Source of the DNA: Candidatus Obscuribacterales bacterium
Lineage (GTDB): Bacteria > Cyanobacteriota > Vampirovibrionia > Obscuribacterales > Obscuribacteraceae
Length of the DNA: 33,652 bases
Direction of reading: 5' to 3'
NCBI GenBank assembly: GCA_020050835.1
Contig: JAGVKB010000080.1
Span: 1 to 33,652, forward strand
Part shown: positions 13,727-33,652 of the stretch, piece by piece
Numbering within the stretch: position 1 is the stretch's first letter
Layout: each line of letters begins with the position of its first letter
Notes under the pieces: generated by a model
What the model was told of the DNA's origin: nothing
Seen by the model: the letters and a program-made list of their open reading frames with translations, nothing else
The model's database searches: none
Made by a program: the position numbers and the translations under genes

Positions 13727-14104
13727 ATGCCAAATGCATCGCGCAGCTTTTCTTCGAGTCTGATTGGCCAGCGCCTGATTGAGGCGGGTTACCTGACCGA
13801 CTTGCAATTGAAAGAAGCGCTGGCGGCTCAAGTGGAGACCGGACTGTTGCTGGGAGAAGTGTGCATGCTGAAAGGCTGGCTGACTTATCCACAGGTCAAA
13901 GAATGCCTGCCGACTTTACGCAGCAAGCTGGGTGAGAAGTTGCTGGCTTTGGGCTACATAACGATCGAGCAGCTTTGGCTGGCCTTGTTCGAGCAGCGCC
14001 AGACCGGCGTCAGGCTCGGAGCGATCCTGGTTGACAGAGGCTGGGTAGACCGCGCCGTGCTTGATACGGTACTGCCAGCTCCGGCAAGAATCACCCCGAG
14101 CTAA
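13727..14104 (+). CDS. Stand-alone tandem MshEN-domain protein (predicted c-di-GMP receptor)
   Basis: A 125-residue protein made almost wholly of two MshEN modules (T2SS ATPase N-terminal type). Each fits two 24-residue motifs of the form RLGxxLxxxGxLxxxxLxxxLxxQ joined by five residues: motif 1 at 12-35, spacer 36-40, motif 2 at 41-64; motif 3 at 67-90, spacer 91-95 (RQTGV), motif 4 from 96. MshEN domains are established high-affinity c-di-GMP binders. Here the leading Arg is Leu in motifs 1 and 2, Lys in motif 3 and Arg in motif 4, so the second module is the better candidate binder. No ATPase domain is attached. The ATG at 13727 has GGAG at a 9-nt spacing. The gene is 30 bp downstream of the GT-C gene, so it may couple c-di-GMP to surface-glycan output. 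Its TAA overlaps the convergent selB TAG. Confidence 0.82.
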   Translation: MPNASRSFSSSLIGQRLIEAGYLTDLQLKEALAAQVETGLLLGEVCMLKGWLTYPQVKECLPTLRSKLGEKLLALGYITIEQLWLALFEQRQTGVRLGAILVDRGWVDRAVLDTVLPAPARITPS

Positions 14105-16044
14105 CTTAAGTCAGCCGGCAAAACCAAGAGCGCGCGCCCCTCGGCCAGGCGGCGGGTGATCTTTCTGTCGTCAAAATAGGCCAGCAGAGCCATCGCATAC
14201 TTCCTCGTCGTGCCCAGCCCCTCCTTGAACTCGCTGGGAGAGATCTGCTTCTTCTCCTGCCATAGCTTGGCGATCACCCGATGGGCTTTCAAAATGGTCT
14301 GACTGGAGGCGGCAAATTCGTAGTCGACGAGAGCGGCGCGGGATGAGCGGACCATCTGTTCGAGCGCCGCTTTTACTTCTTTAGAAGATCTCCTCGATTG
14401 TTTGGCGATCTCTTCGATCTCCAGGCAAAGATGCTCACTTAAAATACGCTCGATCTCATTGCACAGAGCATCTTGCGCCGGAGAAGAGGCGACAACGTCC
14501 TTGCCTTTAAGCGTCAACTTATCGGCCTGCCGTACGACTGCCCCCGATTCCTCCAGCTCTTGCACCAACGCTTGAAAGGCCGAGCGCTCCGCCACCGGCA
14601 TCACTTTTACCTTGAGATTCTCCAGCGGCATAAACGGCTTTTCGTGCGCCGTTTCCTTTTCTTTGACGAAGCGGGCAATCTCATTCAAAGCCTTTTGACG
14701 GAGCTCGGCATGAAACGCTTTCGGCAAGAGTAGATCACCGAGCCGGACCAACAAGCCAGCGCCTACTAGTCGGTTTACAGTCTCACTCCTGACCGAAGTA
14801 GGCAAAAGCTTATCCAGTTGTCCGTAATGAACCATCTTCTGCGGCGATGCTTGAACATAAGCGACGGCTGCAGCCGCAAAATCACCCTTCAGAAACAGTT
14901 GAAAGGACTCCTTGATCTTGGCACGCGTCAGCCAACGAGGCTGATCTCGCATCGCGATGGTCCCACCATAGATAGCATCATCACTCAGTCTGACAACGAA
15001 TCGATCCTGAGCTTCGGCGACTGCCGGATCGAAAAGTCCGAGTGCCGCCATCGCTTCTGCGCCCCGACGCAAGCTGCAGTCTTGCTCGCGGCTAATCGGC
15101 TCGATCCAGCGAATGCGCCCGTGACATTCCGCAGTGCCGTGATAGAAGCGAACCGGTTGACCGCTCAGGTTTTCAATCTCGCTTGACTTAAAGCTTTCCG
15201 GCAATCTCACGAGATGGACGAGCAAGAGATTTGTTGGCGCCAGCGGCTCGCCTAAGACAACATGACCTCGGCTCAAGGCTGCATCATCCTTCACGACCAG
15301 ATTGCAAGCCAATCGCTGGCCGGCATTTGCCTTCTCGAGCGAGAGTCCGAAGGTTTCAAGTCGCCGAACGCGCGCGCTGATTCCACCCGGTTCCAGGAAG
15401 ACTTGCTCGCCTACCTGCAGCCCCCCCCGCACCAGAGTGCCTGTAATCACAGTGCCAAAGCCTGTCTTGCTAAAGACTCGGTCGACCGGCAGGAAAGCTG
15501 CCCCGCTGCGCGACCGCGCGGTCAGCTTGCGCAGACTTTCAGCCAGCACCGTTTTTAACCGCTCGAGACCAGCGCCGGTTACACTCGAGACCGGCACTAC
15601 ATCCATAATCTCTATTCCTTCCTCGGCAAGAAGCTCCCGGGTCTGCTGCTCGACAATCTGGGCAAGCTCCTCGTCGACTAAGTCAATCTTTGTGACCGCC
15701 ACCAGCGCAGCTTTGATGCCTAGTAATCCGAGAATTCGCACGTGCTCCAGTGTTTGCGGCATCGGACCTTCATCGGCCGCGACTACCAGGAGCGAAAGTT
15801 CGATTCCGCCCACACCGGCCAGCATATTCTTGAGAAACTTGCCGTGCCCAGGCACATCGATCAAGCCGATCACCAGCCCATCTGGCAGCTTCAGATGGGC
15901 AAACCCGAGATCGGTTGTCATTCCGCGCTCTTTTTCCTCTTTGAGCCTGTCCGGGTCGATTCCGGTCAAGGCTTTCAGCAGGCTGGTCTTGCCATGATCC
16001 ACGTGACCAGCGGTTGCCAGAGTGAAGTAGCTGTTGTCGGTCAT
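14101..16044 (-). CDS. selB: Selenocysteine-specific elongation factor SelB
   Basis: A 647-residue translational GTPase that delivers Sec-tRNA to UGA codons marked by a SECIS element. The G domain has GHVDHGKT (13-20), the MTTDLGFA switch I segment with SelB-type spacing, DVPGHGKF (G3), TKIDL (G4) and an SSVTG G5. Beta-barrel domains follow (DRVFSKTGFGTVITGTLVRGGL). The C-terminus carries winged-helix modules, ending in ISPSEFKEGLGTTRKYAMALLAYFD, the hallmark SelB SECIS-binding helix that separates it from EF-Tu. The ATG has GGAG 9 nt upstream. Neither selA, selD nor tRNA-Sec is in the window. It is convergent with the MshEN gene and divergent from dedA. Confidence 0.95.
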   Translation of the reverse strand: MTDNSYFTLATAGHVDHGKTSLLKALTGIDPDRLKEEKERGMTTDLGFAHLKLPDGLVIGLIDVPGHGKFLKNMLAGVGGIELSLLVVAADEGPMPQTLEHVRILGLLGIKAALVAVTKIDLVDEELAQIVEQQTRELLAEEGIEIMDVVPVSSVTGAGLERLKTVLAESLRKLTARSRSGAAFLPVDRVFSKTGFGTVITGTLVRGGLQVGEQVFLEPGGISARVRRLETFGLSLEKANAGQRLACNLVVKDDAALSRGHVVLGEPLAPTNLLLVHLVRLPESFKSSEIENLSGQPVRFYHGTAECHGRIRWIEPISREQDCSLRRGAEAMAALGLFDPAVAEAQDRFVVRLSDDAIYGGTIAMRDQPRWLTRAKIKESFQLFLKGDFAAAAVAYVQASPQKMVHYGQLDKLLPTSVRSETVNRLVGAGLLVRLGDLLLPKAFHAELRQKALNEIARFVKEKETAHEKPFMPLENLKVKVMPVAERSAFQALVQELEESGAVVRQADKLTLKGKDVVASSPAQDALCNEIERILSEHLCLEIEEIAKQSRRSSKEVKAALEQMVRSSRAALVDYEFAASSQTILKAHRVIAKLWQEKKQISPSEFKEGLGTTRKYAMALLAYFDDRKITRRLAEGRALLVLPADLS

Positions 16045-29547: not shown

Positions 29548-29884
29548 CGGCGCTTGTTAATCAAACAGTACGTTGCCACCACTCCTGGTTATGCGCCTCT
29601 CATTGTTCACAAGAGATAGATCTTAAATGTCTAACGGGGTACTTCCGGATAAACGAAGATCGCCTAAACTAAATGCATCAACGGTGAGTGCTTACAAATG
29701 AGTTAGGCACTTTGAGCCGAGGGGCCCTGCGGCAACGACAGGTAGCGCTATCCGGAAACGGTACCAGGTGAGCCCGATTTACGTGAAGGATTGGCTGAAG
29801 CGTAGATAGATACTGAGCCCATTCGCAATGGGCAGCCAGACAGTAGTAAAAGCACCACCGCAAGTTTACTTGGGTGGTGCTTTT
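29548..29884 (+). repeat. Duplicated block, copy 1
   Basis: A 337-bp segment that aligns to 30321-30658 in the same orientation with a single 1-nt indel (offset 773, then 774). Shared anchors include the starting CGGCGCTTGTTAATC, AGATAGATCTTAAATGTCTA and CTAAACTAAATGCAT. A 90-nt stretch (29768-29857) is identical in the two copies. Beyond both ends the flanks are unrelated, so these are the block edges as far as the eye can tell. Confidence 0.92.
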
Positions 29885-29888
29885 GTTT
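29676..29888 (+). ncRNA. Candidate structured non-coding RNA, copy 1 (unrecognised family)
   Basis: A proposed ~210-nt transcript. Helices: GTGCTTA/TAGGCAC (29688-29694 with 29704-29710), GCCCATT/AATGGGC with a CGC loop near 29817-29833, TTGGCTG with the CAGCCAG around it, and a terminal intrinsic terminator. Loops carry GGCAACGACAGG and CCGGAAAC segments. Compared with copy 2, changes in the first hairpin and terminator are compensatory, which argues for selection on RNA structure. A conserved TAAACT (29665-29670) could be a -10; the 5' end is a guess. I tested it by eye against tmRNA, RNase P RNA, SRP RNA, 6S RNA and common riboswitch cores and found no match. Confidence 0.65.
29848..29888 (+). 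terminator. Intrinsic terminator of RNA copy 1
   Basis: AAAAGCACCACC and GGTGGTGCTTTT form a 12-bp stem topped, across one bulged G, by CAAG-TTTA-CTTG, followed by GTTT. The corresponding hairpin in copy 2 differs only by paired substitutions. Confidence 0.88.
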
Positions 29889-30032
29889 GCACAGGGCTCA
29901 GATTGCCGAAGCTGGGCGAGCAATCTTGGCTTGATCGGCCACTCGCTGCGCTTTGATCACCTGAAAACACGCTTCTGTCGATAGCACCACATATAGCATC
30001 AAAGCTTCCGCCATCGGCTCACATAATTACAA
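29889..30032. other. Spacer between RNA copy 1 and the TonB-like remnant
   Basis: No gene, promoter or repeat recognised in this stretch. Confidence 0.5.
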
Positions 30033-30242
30033 TTATTTGAGAGTCGCGCGACCGTCAGCACCGAAGGCGGTGTAGTCGAATGTGTAGTTCATGTCCACAG
30101 CCTGTGGCGCTCCAGCCGGCAACGGTCTGAAAGGAGCAGCGTTTTTTGGCGCTTTCAGTACAGCTTGATTTGCTATATCGCTGGAAGACGGCTTGGAGAT
30201 TCTCAACCCACTCAGACCGCCACCACCTTCCTTTCGATCCAA
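30033..30242 (-). pseudogene. Truncated TonB-C-like remnant
   Basis: The minus-strand frame ends in a 60-residue stretch typical of the C-terminal half of TonB-type energy-transducer domains: LSGLRISKPSSSDIANQAVLKA, then NAAPFRPLPAGAPQAVDMNYTFDY and a short tail. In full proteins this is preceded by the rest of the TonB-C domain, a proline-rich linker and an N-terminal TM anchor. Here an in-frame TGA lies five codons upstream of the first possible start (TTG 30242), and no anchor or linker is present. It is read as a 3' gene remnant, stranded between the two RNA copies. The alternative is a small free-standing domain, less likely without an SD. Confidence 0.6.
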
Positions 30243-30320
30243 TTGGCAAAGTATTCAGAATCAGATAATGATCCCTACTTATAGTACTAACACCGCAATA
30301 GCAGGCCAGCGTTATTGGCC

Positions 30321-30658
30321 CGGCGCTTGTTAATCCAATTCAAGACCGCCACCACATATGGTTTAGCGCCTTTCCGCATTGCAAAAAGATAGATCTTAAA
30401 TGTCTATTGGGGTAGTTCCATCTAGAAGAGGATCGGCTAAACTAAATGCATAAACGGTGAGAGCTCACAAATCGAGTTGAGCACTTTGAGCCGAGGGGCC
30501 TTGTGGAAACGACAGGCAGCGCTGTCCGGAAACAGTAGCAAGTGAGCCCGATTTACGTGAAGGATTGGCTGAAGCGTAGATAGATACTGAGCCCATTCGC
30601 AATGGGCAGCCAGACAGTAGTAAAAGCACCATCGCAGGTTTACCTGGATGGTGCTTTT
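30321..30658 (+). repeat. Duplicated block, copy 2
   Basis: The 338-bp homologue of 29548-29884, directly repeated 774 bp downstream. Divergence concentrates in the 5' third and in specific helix positions. 30542-30631 is identical to copy 1. Its end abuts the stop codon of the histidine kinase on the other strand. Confidence 0.92.
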
Positions 30659-30660
30659 AT
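30450..30660 (+). ncRNA. Candidate structured non-coding RNA, copy 2
   Basis: Same architecture as copy 1. The first hairpin is GCTCA/TGAGC (30463-30467 with 30478-30482), where copy 1 has GCTTA/TAGGC; both are fully paired. The GGAAACGACAGG and CCGGAAAC segments and the identical 90-nt core follow. In copy 2 GACAG/CTGTC could also pair around GCAGCG (30511-30526), an option mismatched in copy 1. The minus-strand frames over the two copies encode similar peptides, but the 90-nt core is identical at every wobble position too, which fits RNA and not protein constraint. Confidence 0.65.
30622..30660. terminator. Terminator of RNA copy 2, shared with the convergent kinase gene
   Basis: AAAAGCACCATC and GATGGTGCTTTT form a 12-bp stem with an inner CAGG-TTTA-CCTG helix and a bulged G, followed by ATTTA. 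It ends 2 bp from the kinase stop codon on the minus strand and can fold in both directions. Confidence 0.88.
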
Positions 30661-32175
30661 TTATCGTGGCACCCTGAACCAAAAGGTAGCGCCTTCGTTC
30701 TGCTCGCTCTCCACTCCGATCGCTCCCTTGTGAGCTTCGATCAACATCTTGCAAATTGGTAGACCCAGTCCGGTTCCCTTTCCGTAATTACCATCGGAAG
30801 TCTGTACCTGTTTGTATCGTTCGAAAATTGAACTAATCGATCCCGATGGAATGCCACGGCCCCTGTCGCTTACTCGAAACTCAATCATTTCGCCGTGGCG
30901 GTCAACCGAAACAGTAACCGTTTCGTCCGGTGGCGAAAACTTGACAGCGTTGGACAAGAGATTGACTAGAACCTGAATGATACGGTCCTCATCAAGGTTG
31001 GCTTCGAGCCCAGCCTCTGGTTTGCCGACTGCAAGCTTGACGGCTTTCTGCCTGGCCAACCCTTCGACCGCTTGCACTGATTTTTCCAGGAGTTCTTCGA
31101 CTTTCGTCGGCTTGGCATCAAGTGTGAATGCACCCGCTTCGAGTTTGTCATAGTCCAGAAGATCGTTAATCATCTTGATCAACCGCTGGACATTTTTTTC
31201 CATGATACCGATCTGCCTGACCGCCGGCTCCCGCATGAACCCTCGTTCGCCTTCGCGTGCCAGCAGTCCAATCACGCCAAAAATCGAAGTGAGCGGCGTG
31301 CGCAGATCATGGGTAACCATGGACATGATCTCTTGCTTCTGCTCCGCTGCGAGCGCCAAAGCATCCGCCATCTCGTGAAACACCTTGTCCAGTCCGGCAA
31401 TCTCATCCGAGCCAGGTAGAATTTCCGCCAGCGGCCGACCTTCCGAAAGGCGCCTGGTATTGTCTGTCAATACTTGTAGCCTAACAACAACTCCTCTTGA
31501 GAAGAAGAGAGCGAGAGCAAAAGCCAGACCTACATTGAGCGAAAGTCCGATTAGCAAAATCTGCCGCTGCCGGTCCCTGAGCTTTCTTTGCGCTTCCGGC
31601 GCGCTCTTCTCGATCTCCTGATATCTTGAGACGAACTTCACGAACCGATCTTGAATATCTTCAGCCAACCGGTCTCTATAATGCCGGTACGACTCTATCC
31701 CTTTTGAAGTTTCTGCATCGCAACGGCCATGCATAAACGCTCTTACCCCCTCAATCTGCTCGAGAGCGAAATCGTAGACACGATTGAGCTCCTGCAATGA
31801 CGGAATATCGCCGGGATTCTCCGAAACGACATCGGTTAAGCGCCTGCGGCAGTCCGCTATCGTATTAACGGTCCGGTCAAACTTCTGCGCTAGCGCCGGG
31901 GTGGTTTTGTTTAGATCGAGTGCGGCCGAAGCGATAAAACCGATGTCAAAGGTGAGTTTTACGAGCTTGCTGCTGACCGCTAGAATCTCCTTGGCTCGAG
32001 CCTCCTGCCTGGCTTCCCTTTCGACTTCTTGCAGCTGAGAAAAGAGAATGAAGACAAGCACAAGCTCGAAAGCAAGCGGTAAGAAGACAATGATCAGACC
32101 TTTCTGAATGAGTCCTAGCTTGAGCCAGCCTTCGGTGATAAACAGTTGACACTCCCCCTGCCCGCTTTTCAACAT
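30661..32175 (-). CDS. Membrane sensor histidine kinase with HAMP domain
   Basis: A 504-residue two-component sensor. An N-terminal TM segment (about 20-45, GLIIVFLPLAFELVLVFILF), a helical extracytoplasmic sensor region (about 50-205, CHASE3-like in pattern) and a second TM lead to a HAMP linker. HisKA follows with the phospho-acceptor His289 in MVTHDLRTPLTSI. The HATPase domain has NLLSNAVKFSPPDE (N box), DRGRGIP (G1), FERYKQV (F) and GKGTGLGLPI (G2). The frame begins at a TTG (32205) with another ATG at 32199. I choose the ATG at 32175, which has GGTGGA 7 nt upstream. No response regulator is adjacent, so it is an orphan kinase here. Confidence 0.9.
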   Translation of the reverse strand: MLKSGQGECQLFITEGWLKLGLIQKGLIIVFLPLAFELVLVFILFSQLQEVEREARQEARAKEILAVSSKLVKLTFDIGFIASAALDLNKTTPALAQKFDRTVNTIADCRRRLTDVVSENPGDIPSLQELNRVYDFALEQIEGVRAFMHGRCDAETSKGIESYRHYRDRLAEDIQDRFVKFVSRYQEIEKSAPEAQRKLRDRQRQILLIGLSLNVGLAFALALFFSRGVVVRLQVLTDNTRRLSEGRPLAEILPGSDEIAGLDKVFHEMADALALAAEQKQEIMSMVTHDLRTPLTSIFGVIGLLAREGERGFMREPAVRQIGIMEKNVQRLIKMINDLLDYDKLEAGAFTLDAKPTKVEELLEKSVQAVEGLARQKAVKLAVGKPEAGLEANLDEDRIIQVLVNLLSNAVKFSPPDETVTVSVDRHGEMIEFRVSDRGRGIPSGSISSIFERYKQVQTSDGNYGKGTGLGLPICKMLIEAHKGAIGVESEQNEGATFWFRVPR

Positions 32176-32488: not shown

Positions 32489-33604
32489 TTATCTTCGGCA
32501 GAGCACTGCGTTCAACTGAATCACGTTGAACGGATAGGCATCAGGGCTGGCACAGACCGCGGCCCGCATCCGTTCGTAGATCTCCGAGACAAGCCTGGTT
32601 ACTCTTGATTCTTCACCGCCGCCGACACTGAGCCCTTTTACGACCATCGGTTCCGTAAACGCCCTGACTGTGGCGACCAGCTCCGCTGCATAAGCTTTGA
32701 CATCGCCGGTCTGCTTAAACTGGGCATAAAATGGACAATCCATATAATCGGTCTTAGCATGCTCGACAATGAACGCTCCAGCGAGAGCCTCTTGATCAAA
32801 CGGCGCAAGAAATTGATCGAGCGTGCGCATGTAGATCGGAATTGACATCAGCTCATAGGCAGTGCGTGAGATTGCGGATTCACGCACCATATTTAGTATC
32901 ACATCGTTCAACAAATCCAGCGGTTTCTGAGCGCTGTAAGATTGTCCGACCTTAGCTGGGTCTATCCCATCATATCCATTCTCACCGAGACTGCCTGCCA
33001 TGGAAATGATCATTCGCCCACCCGGCGCAAGCTCCCTGGCTCTCTGTTGGAGAATGATGGACCAGTCCTGAGCGGAAAGCTCGGCGAGGTGTCTTGATTC
33101 GTCTGGAGCACCCCCCCAGTGAAAGAGATGGTTTTTCAGACTGCCATCGGGAAACTCGCGCAACCAGTGCAGAGCCGACGAAGAGTAGCCGAATTGAACG
33201 GACGCCTTCGGCAACACTTGGCTATAGAAAGTGGACGCACCAGCCAGCACGAAAGTGCGTCCGCCGTCGTCGGTCTGAGAGCCGAGGTACGAATCTTCAT
33301 CAACGCCGTAAACGTCCTTGAACAATCCGTTGAAATTGTTAGTAGGCAGGTCATTATGTACGACACAGATATCCTGTTGTCTCCTTCGCCTGCGAACAGC
33401 TTGAACAACCGTGCGCACAGGAATTACTGAATTCCGCCCCTCACCACACCCGTAGTCCACGATCCAAAATGGCTGAAAGTCGGCAGGCAAAGGAACTCGC
33501 GAAGCCGCATCACTGATCAGCGGCTCAATCACCTCAATCACCTTTCGCTGAATCAGAGAATGCGACTTGTAAAATCCGTCACCTTTCATACTGGTTGGCA
33601 ACAT
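32489..33604 (-). CDS. SABATH-family (plant-type) SAM-dependent carboxyl methyltransferase
   Basis: A 371-residue protein resembling the salicylate/jasmonate/benzoate carboxyl methyltransferases, which use SAM to esterify small carboxylic acids. Visible family marks: GFYKSHSLIQRKVIEVIEPLI (the Tyr/Ser/Gln N-terminal SAM motif), IVDYGCGEGRNSVIPV (SAM-binding loop, DLGCSSGPN in plants), HNDLPTNNFNGLFK (plants NDLPGNDFN), and GASTFYSQVLPKASVQFGYSSSALHWL (plants SFYGRLFP...SSYSLHWL). GGRMIISMAG follows. Length fits the family. The frame opens at a TTG (33628); the ATG at 33604 has GGTGA 7 nt upstream and is preferred. The substrate cannot be told. It stands alone, separated from the kinase by 313 bp. 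Confidence 0.87.
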   Translation of the reverse strand: MLPTSMKGDGFYKSHSLIQRKVIEVIEPLISDAASRVPLPADFQPFWIVDYGCGEGRNSVIPVRTVVQAVRRRRRQQDICVVHNDLPTNNFNGLFKDVYGVDEDSYLGSQTDDGGRTFVLAGASTFYSQVLPKASVQFGYSSSALHWLREFPDGSLKNHLFHWGGAPDESRHLAELSAQDWSIILQQRARELAPGGRMIISMAGSLGENGYDGIDPAKVGQSYSAQKPLDLLNDVILNMVRESAISRTAYELMSIPIYMRTLDQFLAPFDQEALAGAFIVEHAKTDYMDCPFYAQFKQTGDVKAYAAELVATVRAFTEPMVVKGLSVGGGEESRVTRLVSEIYERMRAAVCASPDAYPFNVIQLNAVLCRR

Positions 33605-33652
33605 TGTTTTATCACCGGCACCGCTCAACTACCCAACTTCAACCAAGCACAA

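Follow-up and report, generated by a model that had tools for sequence, protein, structure and literature searches.

The window, by which we mean the whole analysed stretch of 33,652 nt, carries two tandem copies of a structured RNA. Repeat comparison within the window showed direct repeats of 92% identity (29700–29888 vs. 30474–30662) and 78% identity (29575–29699 vs. 30348–30472), with a spacing of 774 nt between the two copies. The original prediction had reported both the tandem arrangement and an identical 90-nt core, and both reproduced: the block at 29768–29857 and 30542–30631 is exact, with mismatches flanking it on both sides. We observed that each copy matches the Rfam model of poplar-1 (RF03041) over model positions 1–141, at 29711–29850 (130.7 bits) and 30485–30624 (142.8 bits), above the gathering score of 110.5 bits. 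The consensus helices of RF03041 are present in both copies, and P2, P3, P4, P6 and P7 covary among 82 homologues. By this match the repeats are tandem paralogues of a catalogued RNA, and the genome that carries them belongs to the order Obscuribacterales.

The copies had been described as paralogous small RNAs of an unrecognised family, and an Rfam hit to a known family had been named as what would remove the novelty. The scan returned such a family above its gathering score, and the claim of a new family is therefore refuted; the description of the RNAs as paralogous, separately terminated and structured stood. Rfam gives the type of RF03041 as "Gene; sRNA", and poplar-1 is reportedly a candidate structured RNA from the 2017 set of Weinberg et al. 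In the literature searched, we found no paper on poplar-1 and none on small RNAs of Obscuribacterales. The Rfam model leaves out P0/P1 at its 5′ end and the terminator at its 3′ end, and is displayed without a pseudoknot. Sequence comparison is what establishes the family, boundaries, structure and pseudoknot, promoter block, order restriction, two subfamilies and loop self-complementarity described here; the full length, promoter, host order, subfamilies and palindrome switching are new beyond the RF03041 entry.

The following features were assigned to the two copies (R1 is our full-length model, for which E-values are rough).

29550–29561, + strand: putative upstream promoter box GCGCTTGTTAAT, copy 1, ~ −130 from the RNA (enriched k-mers in 80 upstream regions and alignment)
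29623–29644, + strand: putative core promoter block TTAAATGTCTAACGGGGTACTT (−35 region), copy 1 (exact pattern match and column information)
29665–29670, + strand: −10-like TAAACT, copy 1, with a predicted start near 29677 (consensus TATACT, 94 promoters)
29682–29889, + strand: predicted full-length poplar-1 RNA, copy 1, ~205 nt (R1, 207.5 bits; RF03041 as above)
29745–29748, + strand: self-complementary P3 tetraloop GCGC, copy 1, proposed kissing-dimer site (122/122 self-complementary)
29848–29889, + strand: intrinsic terminator, copy 1, with a perfect 12-bp stem (29848–29859/29873–29884) that covaries in 82 homologues
30323–30334, + strand: putative upstream promoter box GCGCTTGTTAAT, copy 2 (enrichment and alignment, as for copy 1)
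30396–30417, + strand: putative core promoter block TTAAATGTCTATTGGGGTAGTT, copy 2 (exact pattern match)
30438–30443, + strand: −10-like TAAACT, copy 2, with a predicted start near 30450 (consensus TATACT, 94 promoters)
30455–30663, + strand: predicted full-length poplar-1 RNA, copy 2, ~205 nt (R1, 209.4 bits; RF03041 as above)
30519–30522, + strand: P3 tetraloop GCGC, copy 2 (self-complementary loop alignment)
30565–30569, + strand: pseudoknot 5′ strand in the P4 loop, copy 2 (two-sided changes in 5/5 pairs; 94.6% of cells paired in 82 sequences)
30609–30613, + strand: pseudoknot 3′ strand, copy 2, partner of 30565–30569 (two-sided changes in 5/5 pairs)
30621–30663, + strand: intrinsic terminator, copy 2, with a perfect 13-bp stem (30621–30633/30647–30659) that covaries in 82 homologues

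The original prediction had let the RNAs run from 29548 and 30321. Upstream regions aligned on the conserved CGGTGAG start place the predicted beginnings at ~29677–29682 and ~30450–30455, and the similarity further upstream is promoter sequence. The 5′ part of ~130 nt (29548–29681) is, from its alignment and boxes, a conserved promoter rather than RNA, which rules out an RNA beginning at 29548. Both copies are predicted to be transcribed from these starts, giving an RNA of about 205 nt that would be a few nucleotides longer at the 5′ end if it begins at the predicted A.

The promoters share one layout, with a TATACT-like −10 followed by CATAACGGTGAG. Across 94 non-redundant promoters, the −10 consensus TATACT lies at a constant distance ahead of the latter element. 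The −35 region holds the block TTAAATGT..T.TGGGGTACTTCC with fixed spacing, a further box GCGCTTGTTAA lies near −130, and ATATRCR elements occupy ~ −150 to −230. Between −140 and −90, CAAGCGC was present in 27 of 80 upstream regions (1.4 expected) and CTTGTTA in 18 of 80 (0.33 expected). The core block takes the form TTAAATG-N6-GGGGTACTT. The pattern TTAAATGN6GGGGNASTT occurs at exactly 4 sites in the 7.0 Mb of the own genome, one before each RNA copy; inexact matches to the core block were not commoner in that genome than those to a reversed control pattern. A single regulator may control all poplar-1 copies. ATATACG was found in 12 regions compared to 0.15 expected within the −150 to −230 clusters, which are probably further regulator sites. 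Regular spacing of the upstream ATATNC elements was sought and not found.

From 34 genomes we gathered 141 copies, of which 82 distinct ones were aligned. The resulting structure comprises P0, P1, P2/P2b, P3, P4, P6, P7 and the terminator, counted as nine helices; in addition, the P4 loop forms a pseudoknot with the strand 3′ of P7. In these 82 sequences, 92.7% of cells in the named structure were paired and 51/58 pairs showed two-sided changes, and none of 500 shuffles equalled any covariation measure. Slid partners paired in only 31–38% of cells, a contrast somewhat overstated by this control, as the alignment was made with MAFFT without structure and the structure was drawn from that same alignment. 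RNAalifold recovered the nested helices unguided, and an independent analysis with APC correction gave mostly helix pairs among its strongest covariations. All helices covary, including three elements beyond the model displayed by Rfam: the pseudoknot, the 5′ hairpin and the terminator. One pair of the initial structure, P2 49–110, is G-G and was omitted from the model.

These data bear out the compensatory changes noticed between the two copies, namely C-G to U-A in the terminator (alignment columns 229–248) and the changes in the inner terminator stem and the 5′ hairpin P1; the pairs then named also covary among the 82 distinct homologues. The prediction of a separate intrinsic terminator for each copy was likewise upheld, with a stem of 12–13 bp and a U-run at each end, and a simple terminator scan listed neither of them. 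Two GAAAC strands, located in the internal loop that surrounds P3, are nearly invariant, and the CUUUGAGCCGAG segment is unpaired and invariant. An encoded small protein was rejected: the longest ORF inside the RNAs had a median of 25 aa compared to 27 aa in shuffles, with no coding signal.

The P3 tetraloop was self-complementary in 82/82 aligned sequences and in 122/122 full-length copies, whose loops were extracted by motif and checked by eye. Five forms were observed: GCGC, ACGU, GCGU and GUAC in 121 of the 122 copies, and GGCC in one, with GCGU pairing through wobble. The outer loop positions (columns 76–79) were G-C in 70, A-U in 9 and G-U in 3 of 82 sequences, and the inner positions (columns 77–78) C-G in 81 and U-A in 1. 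On a tree built from this short RNA, the loop changed state 9 times, and none of these changes broke self-complementarity. Four-mers from other loops of the same RNAs were self-complementary in 2–14%. Because four adjacent loop bases cannot pair within one molecule, a loop-loop homodimer is indicated. G-U closing pairs occur at P3 in 28/82 sequences, and together with the GCGU loops they favour pairing as RNA over a DNA operator. These data suggest that two poplar-1 molecules probably pair via the P3 tetraloop as a homodimer, and either a kissing complex or an extended duplex could fit the sequences.

Loop types are mixed within each of three genomes (G001, G005 and G029), so not all copies there could cross-pair. 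In the genus of G004 and G025, ACGU is the loop of nearly all copies in both subfamilies, and G025 also has one GGCC.

The same palindrome-switch reasoning has been applied to OLE and GOLLD (Kretsch et al. 2025; PMC12286853), in a study that describes natural RNA homo-oligomers as rarely observed. Poplar-1 resembles OLE, GOLLD and ROOL in having a palindromic loop that switches among self-complementary forms, there read as intermolecular kissing loops (PMC12286853). It differs in being shorter and without an Rfam match to them, and its dimer is a predicted one. A covarying self-complementary loop, as in homo-oligomeric RNAs of the OLE/GOLLD kind, was found in poplar-1 in all of its full-length copies and in five forms. 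A four-base kissing homodimer has a precedent in MoMuLV/MoMuSV, whose genomic RNAs form homodimers via the self-complementary four-base loop GACG (review PMC7357161); these are viral genomic RNAs with no homology to poplar-1.

The own genome contains four poplar-1 copies: two in the window, one on contig C55 and one on C143. Copies were present in 34/60 relatives, at up to 12 per genome, all copy numbers being lower bounds with at least 17 matches abutting contig ends. Many copies lie <100 nt from contig ends (L174, L178, L146–L150, L172 and others), which suggests that assemblies break at poplar-1 and that copy numbers are underestimated. Among 382 genomes drawn from the class there were 47 carriers, 44 in the window's family and 3 in one other family of the order; the other families in this draw had no poplar-1. 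In a phylum-wide draw we found no carrier besides the own genome. When the full-length model was applied, truncated copies turned up at contig ends in one family member that had been negative.

Independently, a pattern search across 84,980 species yielded 68 stretches, labelled as Obscuribacterales, Obscuribacter, Melainabacteria or Cyanobacteria MAGs, with a few under other phyla or "bacterium". The odd-labelled records Centralia_MAG_505 (G007) and BOG_genome_mining.164 (G003) are taken as mislabelled family members. A candidate homologue from outside the order (G059), at 24.4 bits, owed its match mainly to the terminator and was taken as spurious. As sampled here, poplar-1 appears only in the order Obscuribacterales, non-photosynthetic cyanobacteria of the Vampirovibrionia/Melainabacteria.

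We observed two subfamilies. In 18 genomes, 20 copies lie on the same strand upstream of an operon of M16 peptidase-dut-dapB-asd-dapA-rnj, and this position is kept even in genomes without a detected M16 gene. Pfam confirmed M16, dUTPase, DapB, semialdehyde dehydrogenase, DHDPS and RNase J among the operon genes. The operon-linked copies sit inside one clade of the RNA tree (6 label changes vs. a shuffled mean of 15). The C55 copy of the own genome (L103:5000-10054) belongs to this subfamily; both window copies fall into the second, a dispersed and tandemly duplicated one. Neighbouring copies <5 kb apart were co-oriented in 22/22 cases, as expected from tandem duplication.

Our best reading, at a probability of about 0.62, is that the window holds tandem free-standing genes for trans-acting structured poplar-1 RNAs, probably homodimeric, under one dedicated regulator. 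Each copy would be a gene of its own, with a multi-box promoter, an RNA of ~205 nt and an intrinsic terminator, and would act in trans, not as a leader for the next gene. The palindromic P3 tetraloops of two molecules would pair, and the homodimer may present the unpaired GAAAC strands flanking P3 and the invariant unpaired segment to a protein or ligand. The conserved pseudoknotted fold, the GAAAC strands and the dimer loop favour a dimeric protein or ligand binder over a simple antisense RNA. A fuller version, which we regard as possible and put forward tentatively, is a ~205-nt homodimer formed by a symmetric kissing tetraloop that serves as a lineage-wide regulator of Obscuribacterales, with paralogues carrying partly orthogonal dimer loops and one dedicated transcription or sigma factor. 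If true, poplar-1 would be a convenient model, as a short homo-oligomeric RNA with a clean palindrome-switch signature. The present results identify the hosts of poplar-1, define its complete boundaries and structure, and make its function testable; P3-loop dimerisation is open to test, as is the identity of the regulator behind the promoter block, which in the own genome precedes poplar-1 copies only.

Structured poplar-1 could also act in trans as a monomer, with the P3 palindrome kept for a dimeric protein or for pairing with a palindromic site elsewhere. The structure and the free-standing genes are equally secure on this account, and in our reading the formation of a dimer in the cell is inferred, as is its action on a protein or ligand. 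We consider a monomer unlikely, however, as switches among GCGC, ACGU, GUAC and GGCC preserve only self-complementarity and no fixed sequence, columns 76–79 have no outside partner among the 75 top covarying pairs, and the wobble pairs at P3 argue against a DNA operator. Less probable still is a cis-acting leader or attenuator that senses a signal and controls the downstream gene through its terminator, ancestrally the M16-dut-dapB-asd-dapA-rnj operon. The same-strand placement of the 20 operon-linked copies, whether M16 is detected or not, suits such a role and leaves room for it in that subfamily. Apart from these copies, we found no consistent site upstream of related, co-oriented genes: the next downstream gene was on the same strand in 57 cases and on the opposite strand in 48, which makes a leader role unlikely for the window copies. 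Most copies, both window copies among them, lack a conserved or co-oriented gene downstream, and window copy 2 is followed by a gene in the opposite orientation. Moreover, all copies conserve the terminator stem, and no conserved alternative pairing was seen in the covariation analysis.

Multi-copy, promoter-driven RNAs that end in a terminator are typical of known riboregulators. Qrr, LhrC and CsrB/RsmZ are multi-copy bacterial sRNA families with several paralogues per genome and a shared promoter type. Poplar-1 resembles them in both respects, but its fold is more elaborate, conserved and pseudoknotted. It is very improbable that poplar-1 sponges CsrA, depends on Hfq as an antisense sRNA or is a diverged 6S RNA. 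CsrA was detected in 1 of 16 members of the order that were searched, but not in the own genome, and the GGA motif of a CsrB/RsmZ-type sponge is not conserved, the first G of the two GGAAAC strands being replaced in 21 and 28 of 82 sequences. Hfq was detected in 0/21 genomes (E ≤ 0.001), and the Rfam 6S model (RF00013) has no match in the window, with weak single 6S-like hits lying at other loci. We give hardly any credence to a dispersed DNA repeat or mobile-element remnant with no functional RNA. Variable copy number and tandem arrays of co-oriented neighbours would suit a repeat, but strong two-sided covariation, conservation of promoter and terminator, and synteny in one subfamily would not. 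No recurrent neighbour was recognised as a mobile-element gene, and phage carriage was rejected, as no viral contig contained an exact match to the core.

Other loci were noticed along the way. A weak 6S-like hit below the Rfam cut-off lies elsewhere in the own genome (G000:C84:32886-33079), and many relatives have one such hit per genome; these are possibly the diverged 6S RNA of the class. Within the window, 14101–16044 (− strand) encodes a SelB-type elongation factor, and no tRNA-Sec was found within the window. At 32489–33628 (− strand), the window of this bacterium encodes a SAM-dependent carboxyl methyltransferase of Pfam Methyltransf_7, the plant SABATH type.
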